From: Cenococcum geophilum 1.58
Taxonomy: Eukaryota; Ascomycota; Dothideomycetes; Gloniales; Gloniaceae
DNA length: 64,000 bases
Assembly (NCBI GenBank): GCA_001692895.1
Contig: KV748227.1
Span: 620,001 to 684,000 of the forward strand
Direction: 5' to 3'
Numbering within the stretch: the stretch's first letter is position 1; each line of letters begins with the position of its first letter. The notes below the pieces were generated by a model, which was not told the origin of the DNA, searched no databases, and was given only the letters and a program-made list of their open reading frames with translations. Position numbers and translations under genes: made by a program. Shown here one piece after another: positions 23,425 through 55,239 of the stretch.

Positions 23425-23429
23425 GGCGC

Positions 23430-31395: not shown

Positions 31396-31400
31396 GGCGC

Positions 31401-32830
31401 TGCTAAAGTCGATATATAAACTACTTAGAAAACTAAAATAACCTTTCTAAGTAACACCCCTTCACTTTTACGTCTTATAGGGCCTATAATATATAGGTTA
31501 CCGGTCTATATCTCTTATAGGATTATATTACTTAGTTAATACCTAAGGTTAATTAATTAATTCGCTTACTTCCTTTTTAGACGCTGCATTTAATAAAGCT
31601 AAAACTTAAGTTAGTATAAGTGTTCTAACTATAATATAATAAAACTAACAATAGGCTTTCCTAATGGCTTATACTATACGCTAATTAAGGACTTTAGTAG
31701 CTACTTAGGGTATACTCTTAGCCGCTAGCATCTCGTTTAAACGCTCTAGAAGCTCCTCCTATTTATTTATAAAAACCTTAAACTAAGTAGAGCGTATTAG
31801 ATGTAATAAGTAAAGTCATTTAGCTTCTTTCTATATAAGTGTCTACCGATCTTTATTACTAAGAGTTAAGGCTATACTTATATCCCTACTTACCAGAAAC
31901 CACTTCCATTAAGTTTTAAAATATTCGGTAATAGCCTATATATTACTAGCTTTAGACCTAGTAATAAAACTTATTATATATAGTGGCGTTAAAATAAGAA
32001 GTTAGTGTTACTGCGCGAAGTGCCGTTTACTAAGGTAGGGCTATTAACCGCGTTAACTCTGTTAATCCTATTAACCCTATTAACTATATTAACTATATTA
32101 ACTATATTAACTATATTAACCTAATTAACCGCTAGTAATATAAAACCAGCTAATACCACTAGTCTTTGCTTTTACCTTCTCCTAATATAGCTAATAAAGT
32201 TATAAATATAATAATTGGTCGGTCTATATAATAATACTATATTAGTGCCTCTCTGGGTACGCTAACCTCGCGTTTACCTCTATTTACTAGTTCTCTTTAT
32301 ATTCTAATAGGCTTATATTCTAATAGGCTTATCCTATAAATAGCTCTATATCGCTCTCTTTATTATAAGCCTATAACAATTACCCTATTTTATTGTAAGA
32401 TACTAACCTCCTTAGTATCGCGTCCCTAAAGAGTTAAATTAATCACTTAAACTGGATAGATGGGAGATTTCTAGAATAAGTTAATATAAGCCTTAATTAA
32501 GGTTCTATACCCTAAAAGCCTTTCCTACTAGGAACTAATTAGATTCTTCCCTATATTCCTTAGAGAATTGACTTAATCCTAAATCTAAGTAGGTGCTTTA
32601 ATATTACTTTACTAATAGTTAACCATATTAAGCCCGGGTTCCGTTTACTATTATAAAATTTAGGGCTTACTAGCAGAGTTATAAGGCCTGCGGGCTAACT
32701 AGGCTAAAATATAGTTACTTTCTTTTCTTTACCGTAATATACGCTCCTCTACCTATAGCCGCTGCGTACATTTATATAGTGTTTATTTATTACCTTATAA
32801 TTTTCCGTACTTTTACTCTATTAAAAAAGA
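31401..32830. other. RIP-altered DNA, right flank of the Gypsy element
   Basis: Continuation of the target sequence left of 23424. No gene recognised. A 9-bp tandem repeat lies at 32041-32130. RIP density falls sharply near the right end of this stretch. Confidence 0.5.
32041..32130. repeat. 9-bp tandem repeat, about 10 copies
   Basis: Ten head-to-tail copies of a 9-bp unit, CTATTAACC to ATATTAACT. The change from C to T across the array suggests RIP-type transitions on an originally uniform repeat. Confidence 0.85.
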
Positions 32831-33186
32831 AAATGGAGATCTGACCGCCGGTTTTGGAGGGTTCTGTCGCCGTTTTTGGAGGTTGCGTCGCCAAAACTCC
32901 CCGCCGCCCTAAGCCTCCTGCTTGCCGGTCTAACGTTAAGCCTCTCGCTTACCGCCCTATGCCCTTACTTTTTAATAGGTAGACTATGATCTTCTACGCG
33001 CCTGGCGCTGAAGCTATATAACTCTATGGCTCCTACCTCTGATCCGTTTAATCTAGGCCCCGTTTCTCTTATTCTTTACCCCCCCATCTCCTTAACCCTA
33101 CATTGCTCTTTAGATCCTTCCCGCCGTTATTACCCTCTAGGTCCCTCTTGCCGCCACTACCCTAAGTTCTCTTCTAGCTCCCTAGA
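32831..33186 (+). promoter_or_regulatory. GC-richer 5' flank of the DUF3435 gene
   Basis: Composition changes abruptly at about 32830: CpG and CCGCC/GGAGG runs reappear. Two related motifs, GCCGGTTTTGGAGG (about 32849) and GCCGTTTTTGGAGG (about 32870), sit about 21 bp apart. This is the expected place for a promoter and 5' leader. No clear TATA box or element terminus could be assigned. Confidence 0.35.
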
Positions 33187-35705
33187 ATGCGGCGCGCTCG
33201 ATTATTAGATCGTAGCTTATTGTCTAGCGTTACCGACAATGAGTATATGGATACGGATAGCGATGGTGACAGCTATGGGACAGAACCGACCGTCTTTGAT
33301 AGTAATGCCAATAGTGATGCCGATAGTAACGCCGACTGCGACGCTGACAGTGGCATTAACTGTGACGCTGATAGCATCGCTGAATCTAACGATGCTTGCG
33401 AAGCGCCCGCTTAAGTATAGCTTTATAAGGATTAAGATTATCTACTAGAATACTACCTTAAACAGTTAAAAGAGTTTGAGGAATCCAATTTTATGACGTA
33501 GGATTACGCTAATAGCAGTACGAATCTCCTTAACCGCATTAAAGATTAATGGTATTAGTAAGTAATAACCTGTTCTGCGGCTTTCTCTTAGGCTTAACCT
33601 AGAGCTGACCATTTTTAGATACTATACCTATATAAGGAAAGACCCTAAGAAAACGTACCAAGTCCTCTCGCTTTAGCTGCTTTATAGCTTTTTCGACTAG
33701 CTCCTAAATTAGAAATAAGGGAAGGGAGGTAGGAAATGGTGCGGGATAAAGCTTTCTAGCTCGCTTGGTGTATATTAAAAGTACTATCGCCTTATATATA
33801 AGAGAGCAACTAGTAGGAAAATTGCTAGTAAATTAACCTGCTAGATATATAAGGTAATTACGTTCCTAGTTAACCCTTTAGCCTAGCAAAGTAAGGCGGA
33901 GCTAAAATATCTTTTCTAGGTACTTCGGAAACTGGTAAAGAAATATGGCTTAAGTAATAAGAAGCGAGAAAAGCCCGTTATAGATGTAGAGGATCTCGCC
34001 CTAGTTTTTAAGACCAACTTAGTTACAACAAAAAAGAGATATGTAGTTAGGCGACATCGGATATAAGTCCATTTCTTACTATAGCTAGGCTTTTGCACTA
34101 TAAGCCGACTTAAAGCTCTTCTTAATCTATGCTACTGATATATAATAGTTACACTTATTTATAACCTAGAAGGCGGGCCTTATAAGATTATGCTTAAGTT
34201 TATATTTGAATTTACTAAGGAATATCTTGGTATAAAAGAAGCGTATATTCTCTTTCTACCCTATTTCTCTTACCTTATACTTATAGAGAACTAGTAATAC
34301 TTTCCTAATTTCTAAGATTATTTTCGACCCTTTACTTATTCTTAGCCCTTACGTCTTTCTCCTAGGCCTTCTCTTTGCTAATTAAGCTTTTATACCCCCT
34401 AATCTAACGTCCGCAGAGCAGCTTAGTAAGCTATATATTGAGCCTAGGCGTAATAAGTTGCCGCTACCACTCCGTTTAGACCTAGATAATATCCCCGTAT
34501 TTTAGCGATTAATTAAAACCCCCTACGGCCACAAGGTCTCACTTAATGAGCCTTTACTATACTTAACTCTTTTGCCCTGGATTAAGGACCTTGGCGCAAT
34601 TACGGGATTTTAGTAGGTTGCGCGCCTATATAGTCTTCGTTACGGCGCAGGCAAGGCATTTAATGAGAATGGTGAGTTCTATTATGTAGAGCTAGTTCTA
34701 CTAAAACCTTTCTAACGCCTATACTACCTAGGTAACGTGAGTGACGCCCTCCGGAACCTAATAATGCAGTATGCCGACGCTCGAACATTCCTAAAGCACT
34801 ACCTTTTGCGGCGTGTTGGCGTAGATATACAGGCAATTGTTTGAGGCTTAGAGCCTTAAGAAAAGTTAATAAAAGCAGTATGCTGAATAAGCCAATTAAT
34901 TGACCCGCGGCGGCCATAGCACCTAATAACAGAATAATCCTTATCGGTAAACAAGAACCCGCATATTTATTCCTTAATTAAAGTTCGAAATAAGCTAAAG
35001 CTTAGCCTTAAGCGTAAAACTGCAGGAAGTATAGAATACTAAAAGCTTAGCCGAGAAATTATAAATAAAAGGCAACGTTAGAGAAATGCGCTATTGGAAA
35101 ATATTAAGAAGAATTAGGATAACGAATAAGCTATAATTAATATTAAGCGGCAACTTTCTGGGGTTATATTTAGCGAGGATATTAAAGCAACCTTAAAATC
35201 TAGTAATGATAGATCGGTCGAACACAAACGCCTTATTAAAGTGATTATGACGCTACCTAGTATGTTACTAGAAGATAAAATATATAGACGCAATAATGCT
35301 ATTAATACGGTCGTAGATTACTGTAATGTTGAGGAGGGTAGAGTATACCGGCCGAGTTATCGCCAGAGATAGTTTAGGATAGATATCGCCCTTAGCTAAG
35401 TTAAGATTAAAGAAGATGCTGAGATTTTAGAAGCGGCTAAAGCGCTAGAGAGGGCAAGGTTATCCTTATATAAGGAGAAAAGACTAAAAATATGCTTTAT
35501 CTGCCTCGGGAATAAAAAGCTCGCAATTAGTAAGCGCATATATAAGTTCTACACTCCAGCTGCTATTATAAAACATTTCTAAGGCAGTTATCTCTCTAAA
35601 CTCCCATAGCAGGGTAAGATTAGATGTAATGTTTACGAAGTAACCCTTAAGCACAAAATGCATCTTTAAAACTATGCGCTTAGTGTATATAGGACCTTTT
35701 CCTAG
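33187..35705 (+). pseudogene. DUF3435 tyrosine recombinase (Starship captain family), RIP-inactivated
   Basis: DUF3435 proteins are tyrosine recombinases; members act as the 'captain' that moves Starship giant transposons. The start is MRRARLLDRSLL, followed by an Asp/Ser/Ala-rich acidic tract. Three canonical introns remain: 33558-33618 (GTAAGT...TAG), 34243-34294 and 34672-34731 (GTGAGT, branch CTAAC, TAG). Removing them leaves one phase throughout. Family motifs: QWYQYYTYIRKDP across intron 1, EFTKEYLGIK, IIFDPLLILSPYVFLLGLLF, then YSLRYGAGKAFN with the catalytic Arg region, and ARTFLKHYL with the His-Tyr region. The usual GH before it reads QY. The C-terminus has CFICLGN...KHF and HKMHL zinc-finger-like motifs, as in long family members. 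I saw no frameshift; the defects are stops at former Gln, Arg or Trp codons. FunK1 follows on the same strand after 555 bp. Confidence 0.88.
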
Positions 35706-35869
35706 TCATTACGCGCTTATCTTATTATTCTTTACCACTTTTTATTTCACTTTAGTCTGTTATTATCCAATCCTATTATAGTATTTAATAGAATAGATAT
35801 AATGACTGGGATTTTGTAATTCGTCTGGGAGGGGTAATAGGTAGGGTAAGGGATAAGGGCTTCTCTCTA

Positions 35870-38770
35870 GCCTTACTGTATAAGCCTCACGCGTTGCGGA
35901 ACAAACTAAAACCGATAATTATAGACTAGAAAACGCTGCCTCCTTGCATTATAGCTTAGCATTTTAACTAAGCCCTACGAAGCCTTAATCTAAGCCACGT
36001 TGGGTTGGCTTGACTTTTCCGCGCCTAATCTTTAATCCTCGCGTTCGCTTATATCTTGCTTTCTTCCTTATACTTTTCTCCCTGGTTATTTCCTTATTAT
36101 AAGACGCGCCTGACGTGTTCTCGACCTCCCTATATTTATTTGCTATTATACCGTCCTTATATACTAGCCTCTTTAACCTTCCCTCCCTGCCTACCTACCC
36201 GCCCTCCCGATGTAGCTTTTAGCGCGTTTACTCGCAATAGCGAATCTCTCTAGATTAGAGATAATTAAAACGAACCCTATTGGGGAAGGACTGAATAGCT
36301 TTCTTAATTTATTTAACTTAACTTGTTAGGATTTAGGTATCCCTAGCTCTTTAGACTCGTTGCGCCAGATAAGCAATAAAGGTAATTATTAATTTATCCG
36401 TTATAGGTTCTCTCTAATATATATAGGGCTTAAAAATCTTACGGTTGACCTTATCCTAGTATTATAGAACCTTCTTACTACTTAACTACTCCCGTCTAGC
36501 GCTAGCCGTGGCACTCTTTATAGTGACCTTCTCTAACTCCTCCCTTTAGTTAATTCTGACGACTTTAATATTAAACGGTTCACCCCTTTTCTAAAAACAG
36601 TTATTAATCGCGAATTAGATAAGGACGTTTGGAGTAATACTATTACTACTATAATAGAGTCCACGCCTCCCCCCTAACTGCTACTACTCCATATTTAATA
36701 AACCCTATATTTGCGTAATATAAGCAGCTTTACTAACTTGTCCGAATGTAGGGAATACGTGGATTATGTTCTAAAGGAGGAGCTAGGCCCTTTTTATGTG
36801 GGGATTCCTAGCTTTTATAAAGCATTCTTTAAGGGAATAGAAGGTCTTAAAGAGGTAAACGCCGCCGTTTTTAAGAAATATAAGGAAGGGAACAATCTAC
36901 TGTACGCTGAGGGCGGCTGGCGTAACTGGCCTAAAAGCGTAGAGCAAGATAATGTCCTAAAGTGGTTTAGTAGCCTAATTAAATTAATTTTGGGCTTTGT
37001 AGAGGAGTATGGGTCCGCCTTAAAGATATGATGAACGCTTATCGCATATACTAAGTAGCCCTTATAAGGGTCTACAGCAAAGCAAAAACTAGATATTAGT
37101 TTTGTGGATAATTTAATAGCTAGCGAAAGCTCTTAATGCTATTGGTTGTATATACTTATGCTAGGAGAGCTAAAGAGTAATCTAAACTCTAATATACCCT
37201 TATAGGCATGGTTTGATTTAGGGAAATATATAAGAGAAGTCTTCGCCGCTTAAGACACTCGTTGCTTTGTTTTAGGCTTTACCCTCTATAGATCTATTAT
37301 GCGGCTATAGGAGTATGACCGGGTAGGAGGCATCGTATTATCACTATTTGATATTAATAAAGACGGACTACAATTTACCTCAACGATGTTGGGATTTCTC
37401 TAGATAAATGAGGAGCAGCTTAGGTTTAACCCTACTATTCTAATATTAGACGGCAAATAATATATTGAGGTTGTGCGTAATAATTAGACCGAGCGTCTTA
37501 TCCTTAACGAATTTATAAAGCGGGCACGCTATATCACTAGTTAAGCAACTACTTGCTAGAAAGTATACCGTAAGGGGGACACCTTTAAGATACCCCTCGT
37601 TATTAAAGACTTATAGCAGTACCCGCAGCGCGAGGAAGAAGGCAAACTGCTACGTAAGGTAACGGAGAAAGAAGTAGTTAATATGGCCAGGTACTATCAC
37701 CATAAGATAGTTTATATAGGCGGTAAAGAAGATAATATTTACAATAACGTCTGTAAGGGGCTGGATATTATAAGAGCGATAAACTACAAGCCGGAAAACT
37801 TAATAATGCCTCCAAGACCGGCTAGAGTGAAAATTAGGAAAGGCTAAAGTTTTAGCAGAAAGAGGTCGTTTAGCTATACTAACGCCCCGTTACCGCCTAG
37901 TAAGCGTATATATTTGGGCTCTCCGCCTAAAGGCGGAAGGCACCCTATAACCCTAAATTAAGTATATTGACGCGTTATTACTAGGGACTACGGAAAGCCT
38001 TTTTACAAGGTAAGCTCTTAGGCTGTAATGCTTACTATACTAGAGGGTGGCATTAAAGGATATAAGTCTTTATATATGTGGGCCGGTATTATCTAATATG
38101 ACATTTTAATAGGCAACCTTATAATGAACGAGGAAGACGACAATCCTTCTTAGCTGGCATTCTTAATTGACTTTGATCTTATAATTAAGGAGCAGTAAGA
38201 AGGGCCTTTAGGAGCGCGGGGCAAGACCGGTATAAAAGCGTTTATAGCGATTAGAGTACTCCTAGGCGAGATATACTCAGCTTAGTATGATCTTAAGTCG
38301 TTCTTTTGGGTGCTATTCTGGATATACATTCACTATAATAGACCTAATAAGAAAGGTAATGTTATTGACAGGTTTAATAAGTAGAATTCTATAGATACGG
38401 AAGAGCTAGCTAAGATAAAGAAAGGAGAAGTAGATAACGAAGGGGATTTTCTTAAGAGTGCAGACGATAACTTTTTACTATACTATCAGCCACTAATCCC
38501 TTAGGTTAATAGATTGCGGAAGGTAGTATTTTTAGGCGGTGGGAGGCGAAAGGAAAAGGATAAAAAACTTCCTTTTTAAATAAAGGAGGTGCTTTAGGAA
38601 GCAAGGAAGGATCTAAAGGTGCTAGCAGAGTAGATAGAATAATATTTTATTATCTTATGCTCTTCTATATATAAGTAAAGTTTTACGGAGATTTGGGCGG
38701 TAAAGGCTAGGTAGTAGCCTTGGTTGAAACGCATGTAAAATAGTATAGGGCGAGCGAACTGTTCCGTGGT
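35870..38770 (+). repeat. Inverted duplicate (copy 2) of the FunK1 gene and flanks
   Basis: Partner of 7800-18215 (insertions removed). It starts about 390 bp before the FunK1 start codon and ends about 130 bp after the coding region. This copy has lighter RIP and no insertions. Confidence 0.85.
36261..38642 (+). pseudogene. FunK1 fungal-type protein kinase pseudogene, copy 2
   Basis: One reading phase runs unbroken by indels for 794 codons, with only RIP-type stops, and the ancestral ATG reads ATA at 36261 (copy 1 still has ATG there). Recognisable family blocks: TLYSDLLQLLPLVNSDDFNI-type N-terminus (stop in place of Q); ECREYVDYVLKEELGPFYVG (about codon 160); GSTAKQKLDISFVDN; CFVLGFTLY...FDINKDGLQF (about codons 330-360); RYYHH; ITRDYGKPFYKVSS as the start of the second kinase block; the catalytic loop, now *YDILIGNLIMNEEDDNPS, at about 38094; FLIDFDLIIKEQ as the metal-binding motif; ARGKTGIKAF; SFFWVLFWIYIHY. 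FunK1 kinases are intron-poor and multicopy in Pezizomycotina; the substrate is unknown. The longest open stretch is 36711-37031. Its position just after the DUF3435 gene fits a cargo gene. Confidence 0.9.
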
Positions 38771-40470
38771 TAATATATTATTCCTACTTATTTATACGCC
38801 ACTAGATATGCGATTACACCTAAGTTTACTATAAGTGCACTGATCTCCGATATACGGTGAAAGCTTAGTGTATAAAATACTATAAGACCTAAAAAAGATG
38901 CCCAATAAATGTAGCTAATAGATGGTTTCTTTTAGGTGATCGTAAAGAAATATGGTAAAGATACTAGCAAAAACTATAGCAAAAGCCCGGCTAGTTATTG
39001 AGATTACTATATAGTCTTACGCAGCTTAAATTTAAATAGGTCAAGTGCGGCGTAATATTTAAGAACATTAGGCAGAAAATATAGGAGGGAGGCTTTTTAA
39101 AATGGCTTTTGGAATCTAGTTTCCTTATATAGGTATAGGCCTGCTCTAGGAATACTTAGTACCTTTTATAAGCTTTATTTTTCTATAAGTAGACAAAACG
39201 TGGCCCTATATAAATTGGGGATACAGCAATTTATTAAGCCCTTTTTAATAGAAATTGTGTTGTATTGGGACCACCAGTTATTAAAACCCTGGGTTAAAAG
39301 TAATATTTTTTTAAGTGTTTGCCCCTAAGCAAATGAGAACCATAGATTTGTAGGTGAATACCGCCGCTTTTAAAGGCCTATGCGTTAACGTTGCTTATAA
39401 AAGCACAGTTTCTATCGCCGTTTTATTTCCAGCTTTAACCACTATTCCTCTCCCGCAGCTTTATGCCGTCTATACCACCTATACCGCTAGTCCTTTTCTA
39501 TTCCTTCTACAGTTTTAGATATCCTTTAATAGTAAAACTATATATAAACCACACCCTTTTGTTTTAATTTAAATACTGCTGCTATAACATAAAAGATATT
39601 ACTACGCCTTTAACTATAGTAAGCTTAAATATTCCTTCCTTATAGCGACGTGTGATGCTTAAAGGGCTTTACTAAAATCCTCTACATTAGGTAAGACAGA
39701 GCCCTAACTAGCGACATAAATTAACTTATACCTTTTAGCTTAGTATATATTAGTAAGTCAGTCCTTTATAACTGACAGGATCAGGTAATTGTATTTTAGG
39801 CCACTACGGCTAATCAAGCCGCCGTTTAACAATTTATAAGGATTAACTTGTAGGATCCTCATTACGGTAAGCAACTTTGGCGTTTAGCTCTGCGCACCAC
39901 TGTCACGCTAGCGCTTTCCCTACTTGAGATGGTTATGCAGCGAAAAACCTAGGTTAGTAGTGCGATTTAACTCTTGAATTAGATAGCATTATCTTCTAAT
40001 CACTTTGGCGTCTTAAGTTATATACCTACGTTAGCGAGCAGAGCTACCTGATATATTATAAGCTATAAGGATAAAGCCTAAGTAAAGTCTCCCTATAGGC
40101 ATGGCAATTATATAATCTGGACCTCTTAATAGTAGCACTACTATATAGTATAGGGAGTGTTGGGGAGTAAGTACGGACAACCCGTTTTCACTATAAACTA
40201 TAAGATAAAATAGTAAAGTTTAAGCAACCCCTTAAAGCCATTCTATGCCCAAGGCCGTTGGCTAAATCGCTATAATAGTGCTGTAAGGCGCCGAGATAAG
40301 AATTTTCTTCTAGGTTGCGGCAGATCCTATATCTTGTTGTATTAAGGTAAGTGGGGTTAATAGCTAATATATTGAGGCCAGAATCCGAACTAGTCTATAA
40401 GCTAATAAGCTATAAGATAGCTAAGTTTTAGTGCGATAGAGTTTCTCTAATAGTAGAGTAAGTCCTTAAA
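38771..40470. other. Unassigned DNA with a possible coding relic
   Basis: The plus strand from about 39030 to 39620 reads in one phase as a plausible protein with few stops (LPLSKQMRTIDLQVNTAAF, then FPALTTIPLPQLYA near 39430). I do not recognise it. The rest, 39630-40470, shows no gene. RIP is moderate. Confidence 0.35.
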
Positions 40471-40474
40471 GAAT

Positions 40475-40745
40475 TCTAAGGCAGCAGGCTCGATTAGGTG
40501 ATAACGATTAAGTAGGCGGTAGACGTGTTAGTGATATAGTAATTATATTAGAGAGCTCCGCTTAACACCACTAGGCCTAACTATATAACAATAGAGTGGG
40601 CAGCAGGCGCGTTGGTTGCACAGCGATCTCTAAAGAGCCCCGCCCGCTACTATTAAGTCTAATTATGCGATAATAAAGTGGGCAGTAGGCGAGTCAATCC
40701 TACAGCGGTTATACTAGAGAGCTTTACTTGCCACTATGGACACGG
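40475..40745 (-). repeat. Tandem ~100-bp repeat array, reverse orientation
   Basis: Two to three copies of a GC-richer unit that contains GAGAGCTCCGCTTA...CAC(T)AGGCCTAA and GTGGGCAGCAGGCG blocks. The reverse complement of this unit forms the array at about 54255-54690. Units are imperfect; lengths are roughly 85-105 bp. Confidence 0.65.
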
Positions 40746-41343
40746 CATCCTTTATTTATATATCGCTAACTTTTAGGTATATGGGCGACCTAATATACAG
40801 AGCTAGAAGTATCTGCGAGACTCTAGTCGCTACCTATTCGCTACCGGCGCATACCGTATAAATGTCAACTTAATAGTAGATCTGTGAGCTAGAGCGCTAG
40901 GTCTAAGGGATACTTAAGCCGCGTAATAGACTGCAGTATATAGGATTGAATTTGAACCCGGTGTATAGCGCCTTTACCTTTATAATATTTCACTTAGATA
41001 ATAAACGTCGCCACTAATATGCTTATCTCTAAAGTATAAGTGTTAGTAGCTAGAGGCTGTATATAGCATTTGGCAAGTCTGTCCGTATTAGCGAGCCCTA
41101 AAAAGGCGATTCTAAATCATTACCCCAGACTATAAGATATAAAGCTTCTACTTTCGCTAGCAGTTTTTAAGCATTACCCCCTTATAGTGTACATCTTTTA
41201 TTTACTAGAATATATTCTATACTAGAGTCTAGGACTATAAGCCCTAATTGTGTATTTAATGCTATAGGTCAGGCCTAAGGACCCTAACCCCTATCTTAAC
41301 CTATAAACCGTATATTAATAACTTTATAGAGGCCCTTACAAAT
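40746..41343. other. Upstream flank of the Myb/SANT-like gene
   Basis: No coding signal seen. Contains GC-richer patches (about 40830-40930) and should include the promoter of the gene at 41344. No TATA box stands out. Confidence 0.4.
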
Positions 41344-42027
41344 ATGCAGAGTAAAAGTCTTAATTATCCCGCCTCTAATCCCAATAGTAAGACTAATAGT
41401 CTTAATTTACCAGAATGCAGTAGCCTAGGGACTATAGTCGGATTTGATAATAACGATCCTCCTAAAACGAAGCGAGAACTATAGTTGAAGAAGTTCGCCG
41501 AGCTTAACCCTTTAATCTATCCTAAGGAGACGACTTTACAATACCCAATAAATGCTAAGCTTTATTTATCACCTAACGGTCTATCTCCTCGCTTTTTAGT
41601 AGAGCCAATAATTATATAAGGATGTTTAACTTAGGCCAGAACTATTACTATTAGGAATTGAATGTATAACTAGTACCTCTTACCTGTAGAAAACTATCCA
41701 ACCTTATTACACGGAAGCCCTCGACCCGTATTATCCTAAAAACCAATTTCCTATTCACGCGCATTATCGGGTTCCCATTCGCCCGCATCTTTTTGATTAT
41801 TGGGTTTACCCCGATAAACAAGACAAGCGTTTATGAAAAAGAATAACAATAAGCTAATTCTGTTAAGGAGCAATAACGTCTGGTGGAAGGATATTGCGAA
41901 GGAATTCCTAGATCAAACCTAGGCAAGTTTATAGGTCTACTATTACGCTTAGTTAATAGAGAAGGCAAAGAAAACCGAGGATGCTAAGGGGCTTAATATG
42001 TCTAATATTAAAGAGGCAATGCAGTAG
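41344..42027 (+). pseudogene. Small protein with Myb/SANT-like C-terminal domain, RIP-inactivated
   Basis: One phase of about 227 codons from ATG at 41344 (MQSKSLNYPASNPNSK) to TAG at 42025 with no frameshift; internal stops sit at likely Gln or Arg codons. The N-terminal two thirds are polar and probably disordered. The C-terminal part, about residues 165-210, reads KLILLRSNNVWWKDIAKEFL and then a T*ASL*VYYYA*L stretch, matching the W...DIA..F...T...LQ.HY pattern of fungal Myb/SANT-like DNA-binding domains. The likely role was a nuclear DNA-binding regulator. Myb/SANT genes occur among Starship-borne genes, but I rely on the motif only. It stands alone, 3 kb downstream of FunK1. Confidence 0.6.
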
Positions 42028-42950
42028 TAACTGTTTGCAGTTATACCCTAGTATCCGCGAAACAAAATACACCTTTTTTTAACCAACCAATGCTGTATCT
42101 TAATAACTTAGCTCTATTTAGTCGCAGGCCTTTAGTAGAGTTGTATCTCTTAGCGCTATCTAATTCCTAGCTGAAGTATTTAACTAAAGTACTCTACGAA
42201 CGATAAAATACTTTAGCGGTAACTCTACCCGCACTAGCATATTGTCCTCTTTTATATTACTATATATTTAACCGTCCAATCCCTTATATACTATATTAAC
42301 AGCGTTATGAATTAGTTGCTGGCTAATAAAGCACCTCTTTTTAAGTGTAGGTGTGCAGTACTAATATTTACGGATGTGTTCTTTAAGTAGGTCTAGTATT
42401 AACGTCTCTGATATAGAGAGTTGCTAACAATAAGATGTTATAGGCGAGGTAGGGAAGTGTACGGATTTTAGTGAAGTTATTTCTTATATAGAACTTTTAA
42501 AAGTTCCTAAGCTATATAGTAAAAAAAGGACTAGGGTATAGGCTATTATAAAGGCTATTGGGCGACTTAAGGTGTCTAGTATAAGCTAGGTGAGCGCCTA
42601 GGGTAAGCTAGATAAGCGCCTAGGGTGAGCTAAATAAGTGCCTAGGGTGAGCTAGATAAGCGCCTAGGGTGAGCTAGATAAGCGCCTAGGGTGAGCGCCT
42701 AGGGTGAGCTAGGTAAGTATTTAGCGTAAATGAGTAAGCTACTAGCTAAGTAAAAGGCGAGCTACGGCTTTATCTAGATTAAACCTAAGGCGTGTTTTTA
42801 TAAGTTATACTTTTGGCTATTTAACGCATCTTTAATTAAGTTTATTGTTTTGCTTTAGAGATTATATTCCCGCTAACTATACTCTATTTTATTAAAGCAC
42901 CTAATGACTAGTTAACCTATTTATCTATATTATTTAGTCTCTCCTTGATC
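42028..42950. other. Intergenic DNA with a 22-bp minisatellite
   Basis: No gene is visible here. Moderately RIP-altered sequence surrounds the array at 42586-42735. Confidence 0.5.
42586..42735. repeat. 22-bp minisatellite, unit near GAGCTAGATAAGCGCCTAGG
   Basis: About six to seven copies of a 22-bp unit (GTGAGCTAGATAAGCGCCTAG core), one of them shortened. Copies differ by a few transitions. Confidence 0.85.
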
Positions 42951-43395
42951 TTAAGGACCTTCTTTATCACCACCTCTATCCCATAATTATATCGCCTAGC
43001 CGTCCACTTAAATGTTTTGTGATTGAAATTAAGAATTGATATATTATAATCTAAATCGCTAACGCTAGTTTTAATATTCTGTAGTTGATACGCGAAATTT
43101 TCTAGCTCCTCCTATTCTTTGTCAATTGCCTTATAATAATTAGAATGGATATACCTACTTTGCTGTTGCTTAGCTCTAAGTTATTAAACCTGTTTTCTAA
43201 GGTCTTCTAAGGTCTTTGCTAATGTCTTTTATTGCTGCGTAAATGCTTTCAGCCGCGCCTTATATATATATTGCCACTTTATAAGACAATTAGCTGAAGT
43301 AGCCCTAGCACCCCTCTTTAGGTACCGTCGTACGGCTTATATCGTATTATAAAGAGGTTTAGAGACTTTTTTGACTTTTCTACCTTGCTTTATAG
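42950..43395 (-). pseudogene. Coiled-coil protein relic
   Basis: The minus strand in one phase reads as a strongly helical, heptad-like segment: KAFTQQ*KTLAKTLEDLRKQ, then RAKQQQSRYIHSNYYKAIDK, then NFAYQLQNIKTSVSDLDYNI. It begins near 43395 with a basic Lys/Arg-rich stretch and fades near 42950. Internal stops are at likely Gln codons. A long coiled coil with a short basic head is all that can be said; small genes of this kind often sit beside the kinase-like and DUF3723 genes in such clusters (inference from this layout and from memory of similar loci). Confidence 0.5.
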
Positions 43396-43735
43396 GATGC
43401 AGCTATGGCGGCTAGTTAGTTAAGTAAATTTATTAAGATCGGACGCTAGCTTATATGGTAATATATAATATAACTAGTGGAAGGATTATAAAAGTTCTTA
43501 ATTAATGTATAGCTATTGATAATAGGGCTTAGTTATTAAAAAGTGGGAAGAGTGAAAACTTATATATCTTATACATTAGCCGCTCTAATGCCCCCTATAA
43601 TATTTTAGGTACGCTAAGTTATATCTTAACTAATTCTAGCGTCTATACGCGTTATACTATAACTAACTAATTTAGCGCTGTATCTAAAGTTAGAATGAGG
43701 CCGGAAATATCTTCCACTTTCGCCTTGTTGTCCTT
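43396..43735. other. Intergenic DNA between two minus-strand relics
   Basis: No convincing coding phase and no repeats seen. It lies downstream of the kinase-like gene and upstream of the coiled-coil relic. Confidence 0.4.
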
Positions 43736-44814
43736 TCAGCTACCTAAATATATAGGATTAGGCACGACGGGCCCGGTAATTTAAGCAAAAACTCGTTTTA
43801 CTATACCGTTAAACCTATAATAAGAGATAAAACCTAGAAACTGTACTTTACTAAGAGAAAATAGCGGCTGCGAAGAGGTTCTATTAAGGAAGTCTTAAGC
43901 TGTATCTAACTAGCGTTTTAGGTTTTATAGAGTAAGGCTAGTTAGTTGCTGTAAAACCGTTCCGGGCTCTATTAATTGCATTATAATACGGCTAACAGCC
44001 TTTATATTAACATCCTCCGAATAAGAAGCCGCTTAAAGTATGCTTTCACCTATATTTACTGCTTAATTATTAGCTTTTTATTTTAGGATAACCGTTAGGT
44101 ACTTACTAATCTTAATTTCCCCACTCCTTGAAATTAGGAGATTTTGGCAATTTAATGAGCCATAAATAATATGAATGCTATAGATAAATAGAAGTCCTTA
44201 GATTACCTATATTTAAAATTAAAGGCTAGTTTTAAATAGAATAGCTATATTACCTCCTTATAGACTGTAGCAATTTTAAACTCTACTAATGTTCTAAAAG
44301 GGCTGGCCTAGATATCTGCTAATAATACGGATAGGCACTCGTATATTAAATGTACTATTTCGCCCTCTTTAAATACTTCCAGAATATTGACAATATTAGG
44401 GTGAGGTAACTTTGAGCATTCTAAACCGTTTACTGTCTTACTTGTTACTCTTGTCTTAATAACCATAATAGGGAAAGTTGGCTTTATTTTAAAGGTAATA
44501 ACCGCGGGTCCTGCCTAATCTTCTTTAAGTAATTTGCGGTAGTAGTTCTACGGACTTCCTAAGACTATAAGGGTCTCTAGTTCCTTTAATAGTGGAGCGG
44601 TTTTTTTGCTGTTAGCGGTAGATGATAATAAGAAGAGCCCTAAATCTTTATTAACTTTAAGCGGAACATAGAACGGTATACGCTTGCGCTTATAAATGTA
44701 CTTTCGTTTTATAAGTGTATTAGGCCGATCCTAATCCTTATTCGCGGTAGGTTTAATCATTTCGGCGTTTTTTTTATATGCTGGGAATTCAGTAACCCGT
44801 CTTTGCAAAGACAT
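43736..44814 (-). pseudogene. Kinase-like (probable pseudokinase) gene, RIP-inactivated
   Basis: Starts MSLQRRVTEFPAYKKNAEMI at 44814. One phase runs to a 47-bp intron at 44253-44207 (GTAATA...ATAG); after it the phase continues to TGA at 43736. The region after the polar N-terminus has a protein-kinase fold pattern: VITFKI...IMVIKTRV (beta-3 Lys), LPHPNIVNILEVF (HPNIV typical of alphaC-beta4), GEIVHLIYECLSV (hinge), and after the intron IYSIHIIYGSLNCQNLLI, the catalytic-loop position. There HRD is replaced by YGS and DFG by ISK, so it was probably a pseudokinase even before RIP. Stops occur at likely Gln and Trp sites. It is followed by DUF3723 upstream on the same strand, about 180 bp away, in the same orientation. 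Confidence 0.62.
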
Positions 44815-44989
44815 TTTTCTCTTTATTAAAAAATTATGCTTTACTATAATATATATATATACTTCTTCTAAAAAAAGAATTCTTAAAATAAAACAAATAT
44901 TAGAATATTATATAAATTTAAAACAGCTCTTTTAACACTATATATAAGATATCTAAAAATATATACATTTATTTAGGGATCCAGTTAAA

Positions 44990-47432
44990 AGGCTATTGAC
45001 GCAGTAGAGTATTTATATTATCTCCACTTTGAATAAAATAAAAGATTCGGCGTATCTTATAGGCTGTTTCGTTAGAAATTGGATTTAAGGACTGAGTATT
45101 TCCCCCTGGCCTATTCGTATCCCCTATAAAGACCAACCCTTTTTTTATCTCCCCTACACCTCCTATACCTATCCACTTAAAACGCTCTCCATTAATAATA
45201 AAAAAATTATACCTAGTATTTGCTAAATCCACTAAAGTGGATTTAAATCTTAGAGATAACGCTGAGAATATATAAAGCCTGCGATTCGTATAAAGATATA
45301 AAATAATTGGCTTTTCTTAAATTATTTCTAAGAACGTAGAGTTATCGGGTAAGGGTATTGGGTCGTTCTCGCTTAAGGGTATGTTAGTAGTTGGCCTTTA
45401 ACTGGCTTCTGACTTAGGGTTCGTTGTATTCTCCGTGTTATAACCTAAGGGGTTCCCTATATTAGGGCCTGAGGCTCCTAAGTTAGAGCTTAAGGGAGGC
45501 TTTAAGTTAGGGTTTAAGAGAGTGCCTGGTGGCCTACCGCTTAGTCTTTAAATAAGCGGCTCTAAAGGTTTATCGGGAACCCTAAAAAAAGCGTAGAATA
45601 TATCTCGCTTAATATAAAACGTTAAGGTATATTGCTTTACCTAAATAGGCTGCTGACTGTTTATATTTTTAATAAATAAATATTTCCTATTAGCAATATG
45701 GGATTGTTTAAACGGTCGATTATATTAGTGTATTTTTGGCTAATAAATGGAGTTATTTATAAGAAATGGGAAACTTATATAAGGATGGCGACTTAGTATA
45801 TCTCTAATTATTTAACAAATCCGCTGCATTTGCTAAAGTATAAGACTCGGCTTAAGCTTAGAGAGAGTTCTAAGGTGAGTTATGCTAAGGAAGTCTTCTA
45901 CTATATTCTCTATATAATTTGTATATATTAACTAAGTGATTTTATTAGAGCTAAAGCCTAGTCTTCGTGTAAGGAATCCTAGCTGTTTTTATAACATATT
46001 ATATAGCTTGACCTCTGGTTTAGGTTTGCTGAGGTCCTTTTGGGGTATTATACTAGTAAGTTAAGGAAAGTGTTGTATAGTAAAAAGCTAAATTTGTAGG
46101 TAGCCGAGCCTAAAGTTTAATTCCTTTGAATTACTTTCTTTTGTAGTGTAAACGCTTTCTACTATTTATATGCTTGTTTGGCCTTGATTTAATCTTAGGT
46201 AGGCTCGTCCCATAGCTATCTATACTATACCTTTAAATTTATTTAGCAGAAGTCTTTTAACTACCTTAGAGTACGGTTTAAGATATTTTATATCCTTAAA
46301 AAATATATACAGAGAAGGAATTCGTTCTGGGAAATTCTTTAGGCGCTCTAAGATTCCGCTTCGTACTTGGTGAGAAATGACAGCTAAAAAGAGTTGACTA
46401 TCCTTTATAAGATTTTCAATCTCTAATCTATTGTGTAACGAACCTCGGGGAATAAGAAGCTTAATAAGAAAAACTATATAAGAATCTAAGAGAGGTATAA
46501 GGGCTTCGTCATTGTTAAGTATATATAACTATGAACTATAAATATAGTTAAGATAGTAAATGAGCTCCTATACAATATTAGTTATAAATTTTAGCCGGCT
46601 TTAATTATTATAATTACCTTATCGCATTTTAAAGTAAGGATATAATGTAAAGTGCCTAGCTGAAGTGCCGGCCAAAGCCTAATAAGTAGAAAAAGGTTAT
46701 TAAATGCATTGCGGAGACGCGGCATTTTTTTAAGCAGTTTTTTAATATCCTTTTTTTTGCTTTCAGAAAGCCTAGAAAGCCATTTATTTTCTTATATAAG
46801 ATCTACGCGACGCTAGAAATATTAAAGGTGTTAAAATATATCGCCGTCGCAGAATGGGCGTTTATTTGAATATTCCGTTCGAAGTTCTAAGATATAACTC
46901 GATAGAAGGCCTTTATAGATTGGTTTTAGATTACGTTATTCTATACCTTAGGTTAACTTACTATTAAAATATAACCTTATAACCCACTACTTTTCCCTTA
47001 GGGCAAGGTAAGCTTTACCTACTTTAATGCGATGTTAACTATATAAGCAAACCACTATAGAGTTATTATTAAGCAGTAGTTCTAGCGGCTCGCTTTAATA
47101 GTCTAAAAGACCTGCCTATATTAAGTTAGACTTACGCAGACCTTTATTAAGGGTCTTTTGACTAATTAGAGCTAATATATAGTGTTCTGGCTCTAAGCGG
47201 TAGCAGCCTTCTATCTTAAAGATATTAATAAGTCGGAGAACGTTTTCCTAATTAAGGGTCCGAGCTCCTTTAACCTTCTAGTCCTTGAACTTCAGAAACG
47301 ATAAGCGGATCTTTACATCCCCATGAAAGTAACTCTGTTTCTTATTAAAGAGAGATAAGTCGCGCTCTAACTCAGAATCTATTGCCTTTAACTTTAGCCT
47401 TTCTAGGTATATTAAAGCATTTTCTAGTTAAA
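44990..47432 (-). pseudogene. DUF3723 protein gene, RIP-inactivated
   Basis: DUF3723 (Pfam family of large fungal proteins of unknown function) is a recurrent accessory gene of Starship elements. Read on the minus strand from about 47432: SYFHGDVKIRLSFLKFKD, then a block ending FKIEGCYRLEPEHYILALIS, then SIVVCLYS-HRIKVGKAYLAL, TEYSNKRPFCDGDIF, LSRLSESKKKDIKKLLKKMP, LWPALQLGTLHYILTLKCDK. The phase changes near 46530 (lost intron or indel) and continues with VRSGILERLKNFPERIPSLY, FFKDIKYLKPYSKVVKRLLL and LTSIIPQKDLSKPKPEV, then KRDIFYAFFRVPDKP near 45590 and an open stretch at 45232-44993. Most stops are at former Gln, Arg or Trp codons. The true start may lie a little upstream. It is transcribed away from the phospholipase gene at 48028. 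Confidence 0.8.
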
Positions 47433-48027
47433 ACAGGTTTATTTTATTTTTATTATAATATATAAATAGCTTTTTTATTTTTTTATATCCGTTATATTAT
47501 ACTACGTATAATAATATATACCTCTAGACTAGGGGTTTACCGGTCTCTAATAAAATATTAGGTTGCTAACAACTAATAGGTGGTTTAAAAACAGTAGAAA
47601 AGACTATAAGAAATTAAGAGATCCTAACGCCTATCTATGTCCTATTTGTAGCTTATTTCTATTCTTTTACTCTATAATATCTATCTACTAGGAGCTTAGT
47701 AGAAGTTACCTCCTTCTAAGGATCCTGCTGTTATTAGCCACTTTCTTGCAGCTATTCCTATCCTATCTAGAAATAGAAAAAACGCCTCTCTTTCTTTCTT
47801 TATGCAAAATAGTTTCTGTAGAGAGAGAGAGGGTCCTAGTTGCCTTTATATCTTCTCTCTCTCTATAAATAGCTTTTTTTGCCTTAAATACTGATATTAT
47901 TAAAACTATTCTGTTATAAAGCTAATATAAAAATTCCTATAAGAGTATAACGCCTAAACTTAGCTATATTTAAGTACTCTTGCGTACTTACTAAATGAAG
48001 TAATAAATTCTCTTCTACTTAATAATT
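47433..48027. promoter_or_regulatory. Shared divergent intergenic region of the DUF3723 and phospholipase genes
   Basis: About 600 bp between divergent 5' ends. It holds a pyrimidine-rich stretch with CTCTCT runs (about 47815-47875), typical of fungal promoters, and TATA-like AT runs near 47450-47520. It presumably drove both genes. No repeats or coding signal seen. Confidence 0.45.
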
Positions 48028-51000
48028 ATGTCTTGTAAAAACCACGCTACGTGGCTACAAGTAGCTAGATCTACTAGCTTTATAATTAATAATACTTTTT
48101 AGCTAGGCTATATTATTTAAGCCTTACTAAACCCTACTTTACAGACGCCGAGTTTACTTCTATTTCTAGGTAGAAGGAGTAAAAATATTGCTTTGCGGCA
48201 GCTATTTCTATATAATAACTTTAAGAGGCATAGCTCTAAGGGAGTTTTAAATATCCGAATTGATATATCTTCGATAGCGTGTAACAACCCAATTATCTTT
48301 GCGGACGGCGATTTTACTAGCGCTGTCCTATCTTACCTAGCGCCTGCGTTCTGCTATAAGAGCACTACTTATATGGTGGCTTGGCAGCCCCCTAGCGGAC
48401 AGTTGGTTGTTAACGCTATATTTGCTTATATCGTACTACCTTTTGTTACAGTTCTTACCGTATTTGTTAATGACTTTAATTCTATTAAATAAATTCCTGC
48501 CTTTTTTAAACAATGGGCTGATATTAGCAGTTACGTAGGTGTCCTCCTAAGGACTAGCCCTAGTTTAATTGTTATTTCTTTATAAAAGAATATAACGGAA
48601 GCTAGAGCCGTTTGCATAAGTGCTTACACTATAAAGATTTTCTTATAAATTGCCGCGCTTGAGATAGACGGCTCTTTGTCTCCTCTGGCAGGCTATAGGC
48701 CTTTAAAGGAGGAAATACTAAGACAAGTCGACGAGATTAGATATTATTTACGGCTTAAATACCGATTATTCACTGCGCATTACCTTGATGCGCTCTATTA
48801 GGCAGCGCTACTATATATAGCTATAACCGCCATAGAGCCCTTTGATATTATTTAAGCAACTCGAAAGTATTATATATGTGAGGATCTTGGTGGTTATATG
48901 AAAACCATTATAAGGCTTAGGAGGGAGGGGAAGATCCTCTATAAAGACGTTACTAAGTTTGTCGCATTAAGTATTTTAATAAATATATATCCTCCACAAG
49001 CGCATAGTAAAGTTACCTTCTTTATACCATTTCTTTTAACTAACTATTTTACTAGATTTTGCACTAAGGCAAATTTACCGTTTATTATATCGATCTGCAT
49101 TTATTTATGCGTTATTAGAAGTCTTTAACGAAAGTATAGGAGAGTATTAGAGCCGCTAAGCTAAAAAGCATATTTATAGTCTTTTCGAATTATTATAAAA
49201 TATGCCTTCTGCAAAAGCCCGAGCTCTAGATATTTGTCTATATTGGGCCTATATTAAAACAAACAAGATATGCCTATTCTGTTGCTTTCAAACTCCTTAG
49301 TATATGTTTAGTTGCGGCTACACTATTTGCGATATCTGCGTTTAAATATTTGGTGATGTAGTAATAGGAGTAGAGTATAAATATACTATTAATACCTATA
49401 TTCTCTATAAAGCAGTTCTATCTATAGGCTCTCTAACTATAAAGCTAAAGCCGCCTACTTGTGGTATCCGTATCCTTAGAATTGATGGTGGTGGCATAAG
49501 AGGCGTAATACCTCTAGAGTTCCTCTTATAAACCTAAAATTTACTTAGGTCCTGCGTTATCTAGGACTTCTTTAATATAGTTATCGGCATAAGCTCTGGT
49601 AAGTAATCTATCTATTATTTAATACGGCGCTTATAAAAATAGGCGGCCTAAAAGCCTTACTTATATTTCTTTACGGATAGGACGTTGCCTAGTGTAGCGA
49701 AATATTTAACCAAACCCTTACGCAATTTTTTAAAAGCTAAAGGCCTACATCCAAGTCATTCCTCTCGCGTTTGCGCGGTTATCTCCGTATATAGCTTTTA
49801 GACGGTTAGTACGACGCTACGGCTTTAGAAAAATACTTTAAAAATATCTTTAGGCCAATAAGACGCTTAATAGATCCGATAGCTTTGGCTTACTTAGGTA
49901 TGAAGGTGGCCGTAACAGCCACCAATATCTTAGACGTGGTACCTTTTTTATTTTCTAATTACAACCCTTCCGTAGAGAAGATGAGTAGTTTGTCTAATAA
50001 TAATACTAGTGAAGTAAATAATATAACTAAGGCTTCTAGTAGGCTACAAGCACACTAAACTAAAAGAGAACGGTATTGAAGAGATTCTATATGTTTGGCA
50101 AGCGTGAGTTAACCTTTAATAAACTAGGCTTTTTGCGCTAATTACTAAATAGTGCTAGGGCTACCTCTGCCGCCCTAGTGTATATATTTAAAGCCCTTTA
50201 ATCTTCTCTTTTACTGCCTGCTAATTAATTAATAAGGTTATTCCGGGCTGTAGAACTAAAATTATTCAGCGCCTTTTAAGATAGGGGATTAAAGCATAAT
50301 AATCTAATAAGCCTTAGACTTTGTAAGAGTCGTTATATTTAGTCTAAAGACTATAGGGCTGATGTAGTCCTGTCTCTTAGAACTGGTACTATAGAGAGCC
50401 AGTCGCCTTAAGCTCCACATTTTAGGCATGTCCTTAATGATAGGTTTATTCCGAGACTCTATCGATTATAGCTTTCTTTTTTTAATGGCGAAAGAATATG
50501 GAGGGATCTTACTGTATACTTAGACGACAATTTAAAAGTGAACTACTTTCGTTTTAACGTGAAGCTAGAGGAATTGATGGCCATTAATAATACTTTAATT
50601 ATAGCTAAGCTGCGGGAGATAGTATAGATGCAGCCTTACGGAGCTGCGGAGCGTTAAAGATTGGTCCTATTACTCTTAGCTTTATCCTTTTTTTTTAAGC
50701 TAGACTGCGCCCCGAAATTTAATATAGGATTTTATAGATATAAGGGATTAATTCGCTGCCGAAACTAAATTGGCGCAATTACCGACATAATTAGTCGCAT
50801 ATTCCCTTTAGCAATAGAATTCGTTACTAATTTAGTTACCCTAGCGACCTTTAAGGGTGCTTAAGGTATTTATACCTTATGCCTAAGGTTTAGGAAACCA
50901 GTGATATTTTATATAAGACACCCTTCTAAAACTATTATAATGTACCTTAGAGTAGACAAAGACATTTATATTAGAATTAGTGGGTTTCTATAAAGCATGT

Positions 51001-51161
51001 CCTAGTTTATTCGGTAATAATAACTTAATACTCCTTTTAGTGTTCCTAATTATAGTATACCTAGGTCGGTTGCTTACTCTCGCTATTGTATAGCAGAGGT
51101 TTCCTTAAAAAGACGTTTTAGTTCCCTAGGAGATACTGCGCGGAAGCGGATACAACTCTAA
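48028..51161 (+). pseudogene. Zinc-finger / patatin-like phospholipase gene, RIP-inactivated
   Basis: Patatin-like phospholipases cleave acyl groups from lipids with a Ser-Asp dyad; they are a named Starship accessory class. Start MSCKNHATWLQVARS at 48028. The N-terminal part (LLLFLGRRSKNIALRQLFLY, PIIFADGDFTSA) and the middle (PLAGYRPLKEEILRQVDEIR, TKFVALSILINIYPP) match a large fungal PLP family. At about 49260-49340 there is a RING-like Cys cluster, CLFC...FSCGYTICDIC. Next come the oxyanion motif DGGGIRGVIPLEF (about 49475) and the GISSG nucleophile elbow (about 49590), then AYLGMKVAVTATN, FLFSNYN, DVVLSLRTGTIESQSP and HFRHVLNDRFIPRLY, ending ARKRIQL at 51161. The phase shifts near 49.1 and 49.8 kb and possibly later, by introns or indels. 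Most stops are RIP-type. Confidence 0.85.
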
Positions 51162-51423
51162 TAGTTATAAAAATGTCTATAGCAATTTACCTATATTATT
51201 TTTCTGTCTTTAAAATTCACATTTATTATAAAATAGGTGTATTAAATCTTATTTATATAAAATTATATTAAGAATAAATGTCTATTTATTTTCGTAATAA
51301 ATTAGGCTAAGCTATAAATAACCTTAGTAAAAATATTTTGGAGTACGGCTTACTCTAAAGCACGGCAAATTTAAGCGTAAGGAATATTTTCCCCTATTTA
51401 TTAAAATCCTATAGGGGATTTAA

Positions 51424-51690
51424 AGCCATACTCTAGAATAACCTATACTTTAGAATAACCCGTGCTCTAGAATAACCTGTACTTTAAAATAACCTATACT
51501 CTAGAATAACCCGTGCTCTAGAATAACCTATACTTTAGAATAACCCGTACTCTAGAATAACCTATACTCTAGAATAACCCGTGCTCTAGAATAACCCATA
51601 CTCTAGAATAACCTATACTCTAAAATAACCCGTACTTTAGAATAACCCGTGCTCTAGAATAACCTATACTCTAAAAGAAGTGCTCTAGGA
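51424..51690. repeat. 17-bp minisatellite, unit near CTCTAGAATAACCCGTA
   Basis: About fifteen head-to-tail copies of a 17-bp unit. Two alternating variants, AACCCGT and AACCTAT, differ by C/T and G/A. It starts about 260 bp after the end of the phospholipase gene. Confidence 0.88.
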
Positions 51691-52870
51691 ATATTATTCC
51701 GCTAGCATTCGCGCTTAGCATCTAATGTATTTCTAGCATAGAATTTATCCTTAAAGACAACCTTACGTAGCTCTTAAATGTAAGGAACTAATGCCTTATA
51801 GATAGGGTCCGGAAATTAGCCCTACTAAATCCTTTTATTAATAAGTCCCCTTAATTATATCTTCCTCTAAAATCAATTATATCTAAATTATAGATAGCTT
51901 TTAGCATTGATAATAAAGATATAGATTAGTAATATAGAGCCAAGGGTATTCTTTACAGACATTTAATATACCGTCCTTTACTTTACCTACTACTATAATA
52001 AAGAAATACATTACTTTATACTTAGAGGTTGGTACCAAAAACTTAAATAAATAACTATATTTTACTAACAATAATTATATTTCTTAATAAATTATTAAGG
52101 GTAGTAGTAAAGTAATACTAAAGGCAAAGTAAGGGGCGGCTCTAAAGGGAAAGGACTAAAACTTATAGCAGCCGGGCCTAACTTTAAGTAATAACGCATC
52201 TATACTAATTTAAGACGTCGTTTTAGAACGCGGTCTTTAATCCTATAACTCTGTTTCTCTTTTAACTTATTTCTAGGATTTAGCTCTAGAGACCGCCTAA
52301 TAAGTAGGGAAGGTTGTCTAGGGGAATTTCCATAGTATAGGATCTGTTTTTTTCGCGCCTAAGGACTACTAAAAACAACTATTCTCTAGCATTTAACGTG
52401 GCTCCTAGTCTCGCTTTAGGATTAGAGGTAGAGTTTAATAATTAAAAAAGGTTGTTTAGAGGAACTTCTATAATATAAGACCCGTTTTTCTTGCGCCTTA
52501 GAATAACTAGGAATAATAGTTCTTTTAGATCGGCATTAGAATTAGAAGCGGAGTTTAATAGCGGTTTTTAGGTGCGGTAATTATGTATAGGGGATGACTT
52601 GTATATAGATGGGGAATGGTAAGTCTACTAGAGATAATACTTTATAGCGCGCTTTGAGTTTAACTAACCGCCAATAGGCGTTGATAGTTGCACTATATGC
52701 TTATAGACATTATTACCCTTGCCTTTGTTATCTGTGTCGCTACTACCGTCGTTGTAGTTTTCGGCTTTAGCTAAATCGTTGGTAGGATTATAGAGAACTC
52801 GATTTAGATAGTTACTAACCTTACTATGGGGTAGTGTGGTGTTACGGGGAGAGAAGTACTAAAGGGAAGG
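51691..52870. other. RIP-altered DNA without a recognisable gene
   Basis: No gene could be followed. A ~100-bp direct duplication with the core GGAA(T/C)TTC(C/T)ATA(G/A)TATA(G/A)GA is seen at about 52325 and 52460 and includes TCGCGCCTAAGGA / TTGCGCCTTAGAA blocks. Confidence 0.45.
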
Positions 52871-54050
52871 GCTAGTAGGTCGCGCAGCGGAGGCCGCCTG
52901 GTCGTTAGTACGGTCGTGGAGGTTAAGGATAAAACTAGGAGAAAAGGTTTTACGGGAGGGTAATTTTTATTACTTCGTGGGCCTGAGGTTCTCGGAATTA
53001 TTAGAGCTATAATTAATGTTTTCTAGTTGCTTAAGCTGATTAAGTCTCTACTTCTTTAATATTAATAACGTACTTCTTAAGTTTGTCTTCTTACGCCTAC
53101 CCTTATTAGCTAATAGGTTATTTATATTTATGTTTATTAGTCTAGGGTTGTAGTAATCGCAATCTTTATAACTTACTAGCGCCCTCCACTCTCTTAGCTC
53201 CTGAAGACTCTTAACTAGCGACTAATGTTATAGGTTTCTGACTAAGCTGCGGAGTGGTTCTATTGTAACGGCCGTTAGCTAGGTTGTCGCTATTTAGTAA
53301 TGTAGGTCTGGTATAGCTGCGCGTAGGTATATGGGAGAGCTCTTCTAGCGCTTCTAACGAGGGTAACTTATTATTATTATCGCTGCTGTTATTTCCGTAA
53401 TGTTTAGCTTCTAGATCTAAGTTAGCTGCGCTGTTTTTGATAACTATTAGATCCGCTACTACTTATTAGACATATACGGATACTAGAAAATGATAGGAAA
53501 GTGCTAGGATAAATCACCTTAACTACTTCCCCTACTGCTACTCGCATCGCAGATATCTTTATCCTCGCTATCCCTGTTATCCTTATTATCATTCTTCTTA
53601 TAATTATATTTAGAATCTGTAGACGCTTTATTAGGCGGAATATCTAAATTAAGGCCCTATATAGAGCGGAGTACCTAAGAGTAGTAAAGCTTAATACGCC
53701 TTAGGATTGTCTTTTGGGTGAAAACGAGGTCTGTTAGACTTCCTTTAAAGTATACCCGCGCTTATTATTAGGGCTATAGGTTACATAATGCTAGTAAGGG
53801 GCTTTTAGCTTTTCTTAAGTAGTAGTGTAGAAATTAATTAAATGAAATTTCTAAAGAGAAACAGTGTTCGTCGCTGTTGCTTAAGGGGAATTGTAGGATT
53901 TTAAAATGCGCGCCAGTCCTGCCTTCGCCGCTAGCTTTCGCCTGTAGCCTAGACTTCTTAACTAGCTAAGGCATCTAATATATGCCGTTCGCGGGGTAAA
54001 GGTTTGTAATGGCCCAGACCTACCGCCTAATCAATACCTTTAGCAAATTG
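52870..54050 (-). pseudogene. Unrecognised protein-coding relic
   Basis: The minus strand from about 54050 gives a low-stop phase: LYPANGIY, LVKKSRLQAKASGEGRTGAH, FKILQFPLSNSDEHCFSLEI, GSLTDLVFTQKTILRRIKLY, then a polar acidic tract STDSKYNYKKNDNKDNRDSE. A second minus phase over 54.03-53.7 kb also reads fairly open, so the true phase is not certain. I recognise no family. GC content is higher than in the surrounding RIP-altered DNA. Confidence 0.35.
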
Positions 54051-54254
54051 CGGTTAGAATAGCGCCCCGCCTATATAGCTAGAATGTTTAGCTCTAATAA
54101 GGCCGTTATATTAGTATTCCTTAATAAATGGCAGCGCTAATATGTCCACTCCAACCCAACAGAATTGATCTCTTGTGTTAATCGTTAGCTAGATATAAAG
54201 CCTGATATATATACGCGTCGCTAGATATTTATAACGGAAGGAGATAGTATTCTT

Positions 54255-55165: not shown

Positions 55166-55170
55166 GAAGG

Positions 55171-55180: not shown

Positions 55181-55239
55181 GACTGCGGAGCAGTCTTAAT
55201 TAGGAATTAAAAGGAGAGAGGTAAGAGAGAAAGTGGAAT

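Follow-up and report, generated by a model that had tools for sequence, protein, structure and literature searches.

Starships are mostly present in few copies per genome, they often carry terminal inverted repeats, and genes for DUF3723 proteins, patatin-like phospholipases, ferric reductases and NLR proteins are frequent among their accessory genes. According to the accessible parts of the reports cited here, such accessory genes are absent from some Starships (PMC12134995), derelict RIP-mutated Starships with a captain (the DUF3435 tyrosine recombinase) have been described and were judged immobile by their authors (PMC11623301), and Starships that occur in several copies and have decayed through RIP are noted (PMC12153272). 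The latter source also states, in the part available, that a given Starship in Aspergillus fumigatus is single-copy with few exceptions, and that several copies occur in some other species.

We report that the DNA from position 32813 rightwards in a 64,000-nucleotide stretch of Cenococcum geophilum 1.58 (the window; C52:620001-684000 of the 177.2-Mb genome in 162 contigs) is, with little room for doubt, a derelict Starship, i.e., an element of a known kind and here a 63.7-kb transposon with its own captain. The C. geophilum genome has been given as 178 Mb with 81% repeats in the accessible text of its description (PMC5023957). As far as the available parts of these reports go, the derelict Starships in PMC11623301 are alike in being giant elements with a captain and heavy RIP, but they are single elements and a second copy, whereas paired ends of the present family number in the dozens within a single genome. 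Likewise, GtA of Gaeumannomyces tritici shares the extensive RIP and, unlike the window family, is the single Starship in those strains (PMC11905480, accessible part). The Janus Starships of A. fumigatus (Phoenix family) have a predicted target that includes TTACTA, as here, and cargo with chromatin-modification domains, comparable to the JmjC domain noted below; this likeness concerns target and cargo, and by eye the rest of the Janus target motif is unmet at some sites of the window family (PMC12153272, available text). Hephaestus-type Starships (target TTAC(N7)A) have the TTAC core at the insertion point, as here, and differ in that the window family has a TTACT-type repeat and a TTACTRRRTA-like target, with, by eye, the A after N7 at some sites only (PMC12153272, available text).

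Table 1. Features of the window (positions in the 64,000-nucleotide stretch; C52 coordinates refer to the contig).
Feature	Position	Strand	Remark
End of repeat R	31396..32812	+	adjoins the window element at TTACT
LTR retrotransposon inserted in R	23397..31395	+	terminal repeats 23397-23854 and 30937-31395, 88.7% alike
Starship-type element, left 31.2 kb inside the window	32813..64000	+	runs on to C52:716535
TTACT, left copy of the 5-bp direct repeat	32813..32817	+	right copy C52:716531-716535
Conserved left terminus, begins CYATTAAAAAAGAAAATGGAGATC	32818..32877	+	repeated in other captain copies
Captain, DUF3435 tyrosine recombinase, broken, inward-reading	33187..35321	+	Pfam PF11917
FunK1-type fungal protein kinase (PF17667, Pkinase_fungal), degraded	37089..38324	+	Pfam E 1.3e-84
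DUF3723 protein, degraded, two frames	45584..47205	-	Pfam E 1.2e-37 and 6.6e-52
Patatin-like motif pair DGGGIRG...GISSG	49487..49600 (about)	+	motif; profile below cut-off

Counting both TTACT copies, the full element corresponds to C52:652813-716535 (63,723 bp), its last 32.5 kb lying past the right edge of the window; the sequence-only reading, in which a RIP-killed Starship-type gene set was confined to 18 kb, thus gave too short an extent. The same reading had the recombinase at one edge reading inward, and this holds: the captain is the first gene, its ATG is 374 bp inside the left end, and it reads inward. Pfam searches of translated frames, with in-frame stops read as X, place DUF3435 in three frame blocks within 33986-35321 on the plus strand (whole-frame E-values 2.3e-80 and 1.6e-13). 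The blocks at C52:654293-654676 and 654731-655321 have four and nine in-frame stops, respectively, and since these amount to 13 stops the window copy should not move unaided; judging from the broken captain it was probably immobilised. An intron is probable at about 34677-34730 because other copies show a similar gap. A PDB search with one piece of the captain gave no match.

Among the cargo genes that had been proposed from motifs, FunK1 and DUF3723 were confirmed by the profile searches, as was the DUF3435 recombinase, and a 1601-bp stretch of the DUF3723 gene recurs in other element copies. Near this gene, the element also has a repeat (47515-47864) that is found at at least 24 places with 81-88% identity. 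For the patatin-like phospholipase the motif pair stands and occurs nowhere else in the six frames of the window, but the profile match remained below threshold (14.3 bits vs a cut-off of 27.7, E 0.049, for a piece of 80 aa), with nothing on longer pieces; three other copies align with this stretch and have lost part of the motif. Similarly, the N-lobe of the proposed kinase-like gene is recognisable by eye near 44.3 kb on the minus strand, but its frame found no Pfam support. The Myb/SANT gene was not recovered: neither the six frames of 33-53 kb (E to 0.01, then 0.1) nor a rescan of five of six frames across 39.3-42.6 kb gave a Myb/SANT match. No Pfam match above the curated cut-off was obtained in 53-64 kb, and neither ferric reductase nor NLR was matched in the parts scanned, i.e., all but about 26 kb of the element. 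The only stop-to-stop frame of 150 aa in the window lies in a low-complexity tract at 56.1-57.0 kb. Just past the window, in the same element, a JmjC domain is present at L037:516-881 (C52:684.5-684.9 kb; E 8.7e-7).

The composition of the window is RIP-like throughout its 32 bins of 2 kb, with TpA/ApT between 1.40 and 2.01 and (CpA+TpG)/(ApC+GpT) between 0.27 and 0.73. Comparison with ten stretches from seven other window-type copies (the copy of L025 being represented by L034) gave 2908 transitions vs 16 transversions in 29,265 positions. Taking as RIP context plain CpA/TpG transitions alone, 1548 of the 2908 qualify, and 887 more belong to the Cp[A/G] and [C/T]pG classes, which pool plain CpG with mixed neighbours. 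Window-type copies are 7-12% different from the window, the differences being mainly CpA-biased transitions as expected from RIP, and over 3047 positions of the captain module of L025 there are 279 transitions with zero transversions. Since the divergence consists almost entirely of transitions, we infer that little distinguished the window-type copies from each other at the time of RIP. Among captains at large the transition/transversion ratio is 8.8 over 210 pairs. Clustering by transversions divided 21 captain rows into 12 groups at the chosen cut, the row of L022 being inflated by about 90 terminal bases of retrotransposon; the two largest groups (four and five rows) have 15 and 44 transversions vs 1622 and 2618 transitions. 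Transversions average 1.3% over all 210 captain pairs, which suggests more than one wave.

These data are consistent with a history in which the captain would have performed the recombination, as in published Starships, the copies would have multiplied in a short burst, and RIP in a later sexual cycle would have mutated them and ended their mobility. Conceivably, some less damaged DUF3435 gene at another place in the genome still mobilises the broken copies in trans, and the gene at C49:752543-753905 (L001/L005) is a candidate: a single TAA falls within its listed blocks and its composition lacks the RIP bias. The top three translated matches of the window captain are 44-66% identical. We consider this unlikely, given that the 3.7 kb around that gene lack the family's left motif in exact form, that every listed 212-418 block of the window family carries stops, and that the window-type copies have already diverged from the window to the extent given above.

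All 20 captain loci that were fetched (drawn from at least 165 matches, with the best 100 of 346 candidates scored) open with one terminus, TTACTCYATTAAAAAAGAAAATGGAGATC, with small variants, e.g. ATACTC and TAACTC. Alignments between loci, as compared in detail for nine of the 20, generally end at this terminus, and the remaining left flanks are dissimilar although the terminus is kept; the exceptions are a left flank common to L009 and L014, and repeat R, which together with the R-to-captain junction is common to the window and L016. On the right-hand side, 59.5-64.0 kb of the window is found entire at eight other places, and the next 6 kb (L037) recurs at the same eight, full or nearly full in six and partial in two. 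Out of 12 pieces taken further to the right, seven were compared; among the best 40 of 657 candidates, several window-type copies contained the pieces at 692, 698, 702 and 710 kb, the 714-kb piece has two other copies (C5a and C31), and the pieces at 706 and 718 kb matched C52 alone. The 706-kb miss probably stems from the scoring of the best 40 of 657, because the distance between the 702-kb and 710-kb pieces hardly changes (7,988 in C5b and 7,953 in C5a vs 8,000 in C52).

The right end was located in L050 (from C52:714271), which is common to C5a, C5b, C6, C31 and C19 up to base 2267-2275; at the point where sharing stops, the sequence reads ...TCTTATTTT followed by TTACT. The copy at C9:2.16 Mb resembles C52 also in the flank past the right end, and C45 breaks off early, with the right end missing where expected (L061). 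Sharp ends are thus repeated at differing sites, as in other Starships. For terminal inverted repeats the observed score was equalled or beaten by 113 of 1000 shuffles, which leaves such repeats unconvincing here. Moreover, the cargo keeps its order in several copies: C5b is collinear with the window copy over 39.0-40.2, 45.6-47.2 and 59.5-64.0 kb, L037 and L050, in this order, it matches four of the seven further right-hand pieces (among the best 40 of 657 candidates), and it spans 63,659 bp vs 63,722 in C52. The order and length of C5b, together with the size of 63.7 kb, show a large element whose cargo moves as a unit. Related right-end segments at L059, L062 and L063 diverge before TTACT and have other endings (CCTGATGCAGTTTCC and similar), perhaps another right-end type.

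The flanks of four copies other than that in the window (C5a, C5b, C6 and C31, spanning 69.8, 63.7, 72.9 and 90.1 kb, respectively; out of 45 with paired ends) were joined and searched in the genome, and all four matched uninterrupted DNA across the joint. For C5b the matches were contiguous in 40 of the 40 listed, while among 43 rows for the others 37 (C5a), two (C31) and one (C6) were contiguous and three were fragments. Alignment of seven fetched uninterrupted sites, TTACTAGGTA for C6, TTACTGAATA and TTACCGAATA for C5a, TCACCAAGTA and TTACTAAGTA for C31, and CTTCTAAATA and TTCTTAGATA for C5b, shows the element flanked on both sides by a 5-bp TTACT-type sequence. TTACT is exact in three of the seven; the rest differ by transitions, shift or decay. 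Right junctions continue TTACTAARTA in five cases out of six and TTACTAAATT in the other. TTACT stands at both ends of the window copy. In C5b the left repeat is TTCCT and the right one TTACT, which fits a left copy derived from the target and a right copy derived from the element. All four tested copies have short direct repeats and an uninterrupted site, and they show a single large unit with fixed ends that went into TTACT-type sites; the element would have inserted at TTACTRRRTA-like sites, leaving a 5-bp TTACT-type direct repeat. That the sequence-only reading saw here a fossil Starship, duplicated and hit by RIP, agrees with the repeated ends, with this duplication in four of four copies and with the RIP-type divergence.

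The uninterrupted sites also bear on the alternative that the copies arose by segmental duplication of a chromosomal block and not by transposition. L009 and L014 have both the left flank and the module in common, and the right flank common to C9:2.16 Mb and C52 suggests that some copies were maybe duplicated with their surroundings; for the family as a whole we find this very improbable, since in the other loci one and the same terminus adjoins differing left flanks, and for the four tested copies it is contradicted by the uninterrupted sites and the 5-bp duplication.

The left-end pattern, with up to three mismatches allowed, has 69 matches in the genome (50 exact) and the right-end pattern 73 (47 exact), while the reversed-pattern controls have none; the duplication proposed earlier is hence borne out, but on a larger scale than noted. 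For 45 of the 69 left ends a same-strand right end lies within 120 kb downstream (43 different right ends are involved), vs four in the opposite-strand and three in the upstream pairing control, and 24 have no right end of the same type within 120 kb. The paired ends span 28.2 kb in one case, 33.1-34.1 kb in eleven and 39.1-41.0 kb in nine, the others ranging from 35 to 95.5 kb; members of the family thus come in several sizes, a long one in the case of the window element. Amplification of one Starship family to dozens of copies is apparently unusual: in the open-access literature searched, the coverage of which is partial, there was no report of tens of paired Starship copies in one genome, nor anything on Cenococcum together with DUF3435 or tying Cenococcum geophilum to Starships. 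One family, by its 69 left ends and 45 elements with paired ends, provides replicate insertions that expose ends, target and duplication directly; the transversion-poor divergence separates RIP from age, and it becomes testable how a giant element reaches high copy number in a repeat-punishing genome.

Some insertions of the family are tandem and others probably nested. A single TTACT is common to a right end and a left end at two places, C52:608.6 kb and C3:4543.5 kb. In 10 of the 20 captain loci (L009-L011, L014, L016, L019-L021, L027 and L028) a common module ends about 4.7 kb from the left end, where GTAA is followed by R (eight loci), an inverted right end (one) or other sequence (one). 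The GTAA site is likely an internal target hit by other elements, a hotspot of nested insertion as far as the junctions indicate. The end of R, which lies inverted beside the captain module in eight of the 20 loci, may be a right end belonging to a different type of element, which would lie upstream and abut the window element at TTACT. Cryptons are short recombinase elements without large cargo, and the 4.7-kb border could be taken to mean that a captain-only, Crypton-like unit of about 4.7 kb is the mobile part with the cargo as chance neighbours, but this is barely credible, as what is missing at the uninterrupted sites of four copies is 63.7-90.1 kb, for which the 4.7-kb unit was dropped for the window type and the Crypton class does not apply, and the border itself (GTAA, then R, an inverted right end or other sequence) looks like an internal target.

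For the Starship as a whole we suggest, in a reading over which we are nearly evenly divided, that the family may have acted as an ordinary high-copy transposon: repeated bursts would have given dozens of copies of 28-96 kb, a TTACTRRRTA-like target restored at the right end and present internally would have led to tandem and nested arrays, RIP would have ended each burst, and later waves would have come from an unseen source.

Finally, other repeats accompany the element. Four captain loci (L009, L014, L010 and L024) sit in other copies of the retrotransposon in R, at three positions. A probable LTR retrotransposon at 8914-15252 has 196-bp terminal repeats that are 90.8% alike, and a relative of it follows the C31 captain (L022) right after the equivalent of window position 35767. 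The same retrotransposon splits an inverted, diverged copy (7844-18157) of the 35.9-38.8 kb stretch with FunK1, 72-86% alike, which is perhaps cargo of an upstream Starship. Tandem arrays are present at 7373-7565, 21748-22168 and 51426-51673; their units differ, and the period is 17 bp in all three.
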